Part shown: in pieces, positions 55,043 to 57,007 of the stretch
Layout of the letters: every line of letters starts with the position of its first letter
Position numbering within the stretch: position 1 is the first letter of the stretch
Source: Methanoculleus chikugoensis
Lineage (GTDB): Archaea > Halobacteriota > Methanomicrobia > Methanomicrobiales > Methanoculleaceae
Assembly: GCF_900095385.1 (NCBI RefSeq)
Contig: NZ_FMID01000046.1
Location: 1 to 64,000 of the forward strand
Reading direction: 5' to 3'
Length of the DNA stretch: 64,000 nucleotides
Program-made: the position numbers and the translations under genes
The notes under the pieces: model-generated
Seen by the model: only the letters and a program-made list of their open reading frames with translations
Told to the model about the DNA's origin: nothing
The model's database searches: none

Positions 55043-55819
55043 ATGAAAAAGCATGGTATTCTCACGCTGCTCATAGGTATCGTTGCAGTGCTGGCAGTCG
55101 CGGGTGCAGGGTGCACCGGAACGACCGAGCCGGACTACATCGTCGGCATCGACGATGCGTATCCTCCCTACAGTTACGTCGATAAGGACGGCAACGCCCA
55201 GGGATTCGACGTCGATTCCATGAAGTGGATCGCCGAGAAGAAGGGTATCACGGTGACGTTCATGCCGGTGGAATGGAGCGGCATCATCCCCGCGCTCCAG
55301 GCAGGGAAGATCGATATGGTCTACGCAGGGATGTCGATCACCCCCGAGCGGCAGGAAGCGGTCAACTTCAGCAACCCCTACTGGACCGTCAACCAGGACG
55401 TCGTAGCCCGCGAGGACTCGAATGTGACGCTTGAAGACGTCCTTGCCGGCAAGGTGGTTCTCGGAGCGCAGCAGGGATGCACCGCCGCCCACTGGATCGA
55501 GGATAACCTGATCGAGAACGGAACGATGCCTGCCGATAACCTGAAGACCTACGCCAACACGCAGCTTGCCGTCAACGACCTCGAGGCGGGCAGGGTCGAC
55601 GCGGTCATGTACGACGACGTCTCCATCCAGGACATCATCAAGGGCAAGCCGGTCAAGACCATCGGCTCCGTCGAGACCAGGGAGCAGTTCGGCGTCGCCA
55701 TCAGAAAGGAGGACACCGCGCTCCTCGAGTTCATGAACGAGGCGATCGCGGAACTGCAGGCCGATCCCTACTGGGAAGAGCTCAAAGAGAAGCACAACCT
55801 CACAGAGAGCACAACCTGA
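55043..55819 (+). CDS. amino-acid ABC transporter substrate-binding lipoprotein
   Basis: A 258-residue family 3 solute-binding protein. The lipobox AGAGC puts a lipidated cysteine near residue 24. Ligand-binding landmarks are GIDDAYPPYSYVDKDGNAQGFDVD, MPVEWSGIIPALQAGKIDMV, MSITPERQEAVNFSNPYW and AVNDLEAGRVDAVMYDD. These point to polar amino acids such as glutamine, arginine or cystine. No permease or ATPase gene is adjacent, but a matching permease-ATPase-permease set lies at 59.2-61.4 kb on the same strand. It is followed by the His-tailed EamA gene in the same frame. Confidence 0.9.
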   Translation: MKKHGILTLLIGIVAVLAVAGAGCTGTTEPDYIVGIDDAYPPYSYVDKDGNAQGFDVDSMKWIAEKKGITVTFMPVEWSGIIPALQAGKIDMVYAGMSITPERQEAVNFSNPYWTVNQDVVAREDSNVTLEDVLAGKVVLGAQQGCTAAHWIEDNLIENGTMPADNLKTYANTQLAVNDLEAGRVDAVMYDDVSIQDIIKGKPVKTIGSVETREQFGVAIRKEDTALLEFMNEAIAELQADPYWEELKEKHNLTESTT

Positions 55820-55882
55820 AGTAACCGGGGACGATTCGTCCCCCCTTTTTCACGACGTTTAACCTTCCCGGAGGCACCTCTC

Positions 55883-57007
55883 CTGTACCCGCGCAAACCT
55901 GCCGCCATAGAGAACGGATCCACCCTGCCGTATTACCGGACACCCGTTCTCTGTGCGCTGGCGACGGCGATCCTGATCGGGGGGAGCGCCCCGTTCACGA
56001 AACTTCTCCTCGCCGATATCGGGTCGCTCGCTCTCGCCGCACTGGTCTCGCTCGGAAGCGGTTCCGGCGCCCTGCTCTTCTCCCTCGCCGGAACGGCGAC
56101 GGGAAGACGGCGGAGTCACATCGAGGCGCCGCCCGGGAAGAGCGATATCCCCTGGCTCATCGGCGTGACGCTCTTCGGAGGGCTTCTCGCGCCGGTAACC
56201 CTTGTGTTCAGCCTCCCGGGAACGCCTGCGGCGACGGCGGCCCTCCTCCTGAACTTCGAGGCCGTTGCGACGACGCTGATCGCCGCGACGATCTTTGGTG
56301 AGTGGGTGGGCCGCCGCGTCTGGGTTGCGCTCGGGTGCATCACCGCATCGTGCCTCCTCCTCACCGGGAACCCGGCAGGCGGACTCGGCCTCTCCCTCCC
56401 GGCGCTCGGCATCCTGCTCACCTGCCTCTTCTGGGCGGTCGACAACAACCTGGGGCAGCGGCTCTCGGCAAAGGACCCCCTCCTCGTCATCTCCGTAAAG
56501 GGGATCGGGGCCGGCACCGTCACGCTCCTCGTCGCGGCCGCCGCCGGAGAACACCTCCCGGCCGCGGCTCCGGCCGCCGCCGCGATGGCGGTCGGATTCC
56601 TCTGCTACGGTGGGCTGACGAGCATCCTCTTCCTCCTCGCCCTCCGGGGCATCGGCGCAGCCCGGGCAGGTTCGCTCCTTGCCGTCTCCCCGTTTTTCGG
56701 CGTCTTCTTCTCGCTCCTCCTCTTCGCCGAACTTCCAGCGGGCGCCTTCTACGTCGCGCTGCCCGTCATGGCCATCGGGGCCTGGCTGATGGTCTCCGAG
56801 GAGCACTCCCATCCCCACCGGCACCCGGCAACCGTCCACGAGCACCGCCACCGCCACGACGACCTCCACCACGATCACGACCACGAGGCCGGCGACCCGC
56901 CGCTCTCGGCGGCCGGGGAGCACTCCCACGTGCACGCCCATACCGAACTCGCCCACGAGCACCCGCACCAGCCCGACATCCACCACCGGCACCTCCACCG
57001 GCGTTAG
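55883..57007 (+). CDS. EamA/DMT-family transporter with histidine-rich C-terminus; start probably CTG
   Basis: A ten-helix EamA-type carrier of about 374 residues with a long histidine-rich tail (EEHSHPHRH, HEHRHRHDDLHHDHDH, HSHVHAHTELAHEHPH, HHRHLHRR; about 70 residues). The first ATG/GTG in frame is at 56165, but clear EamA sequence lies upstream of it (PVLCALATAILIGGSAPFTK, DIGSLALAALVSL). The frame is open from the previous stop at 55819 with no ATG, GTG or TTG. A GGAGG at 55870-55874 lies eight bases before CTG 55883, which is the best candidate start. The tail suggests metal binding; the cargo is unknown. Confidence 0.78.
   Translation: MYPRKPAAIENGSTLPYYRTPVLCALATAILIGGSAPFTKLLLADIGSLALAALVSLGSGSGALLFSLAGTATGRRRSHIEAPPGKSDIPWLIGVTLFGGLLAPVTLVFSLPGTPAATAALLLNFEAVATTLIAATIFGEWVGRRVWVALGCITASCLLLTGNPAGGLGLSLPALGILLTCLFWAVDNNLGQRLSAKDPLLVISVKGIGAGTVTLLVAAAAGEHLPAAAPAAAAMAVGFLCYGGLTSILFLLALRGIGAARAGSLLAVSPFFGVFFSLLLFAELPAGAFYVALPVMAIGAWLMVSEEHSHPHRHPATVHEHRHRHDDLHHDHDHEAGDPPLSAAGEHSHVHAHTELAHEHPHQPDIHHRHLHRR

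Follow-up and report, generated by a model that had tools for sequence, protein, structure and literature searches.

Where does translation start in a gene whose reading frame offers no ATG, GTG or TTG over its first part? The question is raised by a gene for a transporter of the EamA family that lies in a 64,000-nt stretch of the genome of Methanoculleus chikugoensis (from here on, the window). The first-pass annotation left two possibilities, precisely that the CTG at 55883 is used as a start codon, or that mutation or a sequence error has removed the start. What it had read from the sequence was found again by direct reading: the frame is open back to the stop ending at 55819, has no ATG, GTG or TTG ahead of the GTG at 56165, and carries a GGAGG 8 nt ahead of the CTG. 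Direct reading and translation place the frame at 55820-57007, opening after the TGA at 55817-55819 and closing at the TAG at 57005-57007. The annotation had also placed the beginning of clear EamA sequence about 90 codons before 56165; this holds for the open frame, which starts 94 codons before that point when counted from the CTG, but recognisable EamA sequence begins only about 73 codons before it.

The predicted protein was assigned to the EamA / drug-metabolite transporter family by its profile match to Pfam EamA (PF00892), which scored 68.5 bits against a cut-off of 28.2 and comprised two stretches. The EamA match covers residues 22-161 counted from the CTG, and about half of the first match precedes codon 95. 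The gene is present in a single copy in the source genome, and the named records most similar to its protein are mostly from Methanoculleus. The features considered are collected in Table 1.

Table 1. Positions in the window of the EamA-family gene, its candidate initiation signals and its neighbours
Feature	Position	Strand	Basis
Upstream gene, solute-binding protein of an ABC transporter (PF00497)	55043..55819	+	ORF, Pfam
Terminator-like stem-loop with T-run, between upstream gene and Shine-Dalgarno (SD) motif	55827..55850	+	Folding; in most copies
SD motif GGAGG, 8 nt 5' of CTG	55870..55874	+	Same distance in 23/23 same-genus copies; 16S 3' end ATCACCTCCT
EamA-family gene, 374 aa counted from CTG	55883..57007	+	Translation, Pfam
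CTG, candidate start codon	55883..55885	+	CTG 22/23, TTG 1/23 in same-genus copies
N-terminal extension, codons 2-20, kept within the genus	55886..55942	+	Alignment, dN/dS
GTG, first canonical start in frame, codon 95; thought not to be the start	56165..56167	+	Frame reading
Histidine-rich C-terminal tail of the EamA protein	56798..57004	+	Alignment

For the comparison within the genus, which the named records identify as Methanoculleus, we used a set of 35 genomes, 25 of which had a match to the gene, at 26 places in all. The other 10 genomes, several of them rated 99% complete, had no match to the transporter, so that some members of the genus have lost it or lack it. We aligned 23 of the 26 matches and read separately the three left out, that is, L022, L112 (genome G022) and L111 (genome G007).

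In all the 23 aligned copies a GGAGG was found at positions -13 to -9, always 8 nt before codon 1, and codon 1 was CTG in 22 of them and TTG, a canonical start codon, in the remaining one (L020, genome G001). The pairwise difference was zero at every base of the GGAGG and at the second and third bases of codon 1, while between the two the spacer reached pairwise differences of up to 0.67 at a constant length of 8 nt. From the upstream stop (or over the 40 codons read) through codon 39, 19 of the 23 copies had no canonical start in frame. The four exceptions were L020 itself, with its TTG at codon 1, L015 (TTG at codon -22), L018 (TTG at -20 and ATG at 15) and L023 (ATG at 13). Over the first 32 alignment columns, codon 1 was the only position at which 21 or more of the 23 copies have a canonical or a near-cognate start codon. 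The codon taken alone is weak evidence, since 1 of the 30 other invariant leucine columns is likewise restricted to CTG and TTG; what carries the case for a CTG start is its place behind an invariant SD motif together with the absence of other starts. In fact, the gene shows both things expected of a CUG-start gene: no canonical start lies in frame close to where the conserved coding region begins (in the window, none before codon 95), and the CUG stands at SD distance and is kept or replaced only by start codons in the 23 aligned copies, the CTG of the unaligned copy in G022 being out of frame. Use of the CTG as a start, one of the two possibilities left by the annotation, is supported by these copies.

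The signature of coding sequence agrees with this position. Gaps in the alignment 3' of the CTG are made of whole codons, while the leader 5' of it has single-base gaps and, in three copies (L013, L016 and L017), a stop in frame 10 codons upstream of the CTG. Codons 2-8 had a dN/dS of 0.25 among the same-genus copies, which denotes purifying selection at the protein level; by alignment columns, the ratio was 0.44 for 2-16, 0.32 for 17-96 and 0.20 for 97-310, so that constraint is weaker over the whole of codons 2-16 than over codons 2-8. From the whole-codon gaps and the constraint on codons 2-8 after the CTG, and from the single-base gaps and stops before it, we infer that the coding sequence begins at codon 1 or very close to it.

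The three further matches and copies of other genera were read as well. In G022 (L112, 1450-1530) both the GGAGG and the CTG are kept, the CTG is out of the EamA frame, and an ATG in frame occurs about 14 codons in; this is either a switch of start site or an error of the draft genome. L022, from genome G017, likewise has an ATG in roughly this position, and its contig begins inside the N-terminal extension, after codon 1. In the protein tree L112, L022 and L023 group with L021 (support 99/90) inside a genus clade of 25 rows (100/100), hence the change in G022 looks derived, if it is not a draft error. L111, from G007, is a relative with 44% identity and an ATG of its own. As for the other genera, seven copies were fetched and six of them (L024-L027, L029 and L030, with L028 left out) were read; all six had an ATG in frame shortly before the first conserved segment, roughly at the equivalent of codons 13-16. 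As these outgroups start near codons 13-16, the CTG start and the N-terminal extension that follows it would be specific to Methanoculleus among the copies examined.

The same outgroups suggest another reading, that is, a start in the window near codons 13-15, the site of the outgroup ATG, either at the CTG of codon 15 or at some other near-cognate codon. An ATG is found near there in all six outgroup copies read and also in L018, L023, L022 and L112, and codon 15 of the window is itself CTG; the column of codon 15, however, also contains CTC, CTT, TTT, CCG and CCA, no SD motif was seen ahead of it, and codons 2-8 show selection at the protein level. We consider this reading improbable, even if it is the best of the alternatives. 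Still less probable is that the protein is made by read-through of the stop of the upstream gene, or by slippage from an out-of-frame start. In the window the two genes do share a frame and are 63 nt apart, but in L002 they are in different frames, and in L013, L016 and L017 an in-frame stop stands in the way of read-through. As regards slippage, no ATG, GTG or TTG was seen by eye in any frame of the window leader, and the same was true of 9 of the 19 copies scanned over the full leader, from the leader to codon 20 (the other four, window included, were scanned over part of it).

The second possibility of the annotation, loss of the start through mutation or a sequence error, which would leave a pseudogene or an artefact, could appeal to the lack of a canonical start near the 5' end and to G022, which indicates that the frame near the 5' end can be disrupted in a copy. 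It finds no support in the other copies and we regard it as very unlikely: codon 1 is conserved as described, no stop falls within any of the listed frames, and purifying selection acts along the gene. Equally unlikely is an internal start at the GTG of codon 95 giving a shorter protein. The annotation had named orthologues starting at the equivalent of 56165 as a finding that would refute it, and the copies do not bear this out: the GTG, although kept in 22 of the 23, has no SD-like motif in the preceding 22 nt (by eye), a start there would cost the protein roughly half of its first EamA match and conserved membrane segments, and the stretch ahead of it (columns 17-96) has a dN/dS of 0.32, which denotes purifying selection.

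With these alternatives set aside, the gene is very probably intact and its translation very probably starts at the CTG at 55883, which appears to be a real feature and not a sequencing error. The 16S rRNA of the source genome ends in GGATCACCTCCT, which pairs with the GGAGG. By strong pairing of the GGAGG with this 3' end, the small ribosomal subunit would be placed on the message; the initiator tRNA would then read CUG, presumably yielding methionine, and the strong SD motif at its fixed distance would probably compensate for the weak start codon. The motif, the codon and their conservation are read directly from the copies, while what we infer from them is that the CTG initiates, that methionine is inserted and that the motif compensates.

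Why the CTG has been kept is a more speculative matter. Our guess is that a weak start keeps expression low. It is conceivable, though we think it rather unlikely, that selection has kept the CTG as a device by which a weak start combined with a strong SD motif ties synthesis to the stringency of start selection by the archaeal initiation factors, thus throttling or regulating expression. The bacterial infC gene, with its AUU start and its regulation through start selection, offers an analogy. Where an ATG arose downstream, as in G022, such a device would have disappeared.

We also looked for CTG use elsewhere in the source genome. The survey covered 185,815 bases, or about 7% of the genome, made up of the window and a further 121,815 bases. 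A simple composition rule gave 118 gene-like frames there. In only 2 of the 118 does the frame run for more than 58 codons before a canonical start appears, the EamA gene (115) and L120 (151), so the late canonical start of the EamA frame is not a matter of chance. L120, a frame of 169 codons, is probably non-coding, and no second convincing CTG-start gene was found among the 118 frames. There is no sign of a general use of CTG on the roughly 7% examined. Surveys of SD spacing in the window were too noisy to yield a usual spacing.

Two neighbouring elements were also considered. The terminator-like stem-loop forms its pairs in 89.7% of cells across copies; neither its covariation nor the folding of the leader was better than in shuffled sequences. 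The EamA protein may be made by transcription through this stem-loop. The solute-binding protein upstream ends in NLTESTT in the window (55790-55819), while most same-genus copies end in NLK or similar; the difference is due to a small insertion near the stop, and L008 has it likewise. At the other end of the EamA gene, other genera of the order also conserve the histidine-rich tail, and relatives of the protein occur in many bacterial phyla, where most matches reach the end of the tail. Such a tail suggests that the protein may bind metal.

CTG starts are known in prokaryotes and are rare. A survey of bacteria and archaea found 2 switches to CUG among 61,358 ancestral AUG starts (PMC5622118); as here, CUG starts exist, but those switches are isolated events in triplets of related genomes, whereas the EamA CTG is kept through a genus. 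Ribosome profiling of Methanosarcina mazei gave a CTG start in 5% of 314 unannotated small ORFs (PMC11456600). This too is a methanogen, but those ORFs are of at most 70 aa, and the EamA gene codes for a full-length transporter conserved genus-wide. Another case is haloarchaeal leuA2 / HVO_1510, for which a CTG start in frame was proposed (PMC8305020): it is also an archaeal gene in which, for several species, the conserved N-terminus precedes the first canonical start. There, however, peptides upstream of the first alternative start were reported, while the EamA start is predicted from sequence; and there slippage is an equal option and the 5' ends of orthologues vary, while the SD motif, spacing and CTG of the EamA gene are conserved. 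In E. coli, complexes with CUG are described as less stable than those with AUG, GUG or UUG (PMC11497404). In the open-licence literature searched, we recognised no report of the EamA gene or of a genus-wide CTG start in archaea. On the present comparison, the EamA CTG would be a further and unusually well-conserved case of the known rare prokaryotic CTG starts, archaea included.

The case matters for annotation and for initiation. A gene finder limited to ATG, GTG and TTG would drop 94 residues of the protein or report the gene as broken. That a CTG start has lasted throughout a genus suggests that starts of this kind can be stable and not transient. Finally, the copies offer a natural test of archaeal initiation, in which SD motif and spacing are constant and CTG in 22 copies may be set against TTG in one.
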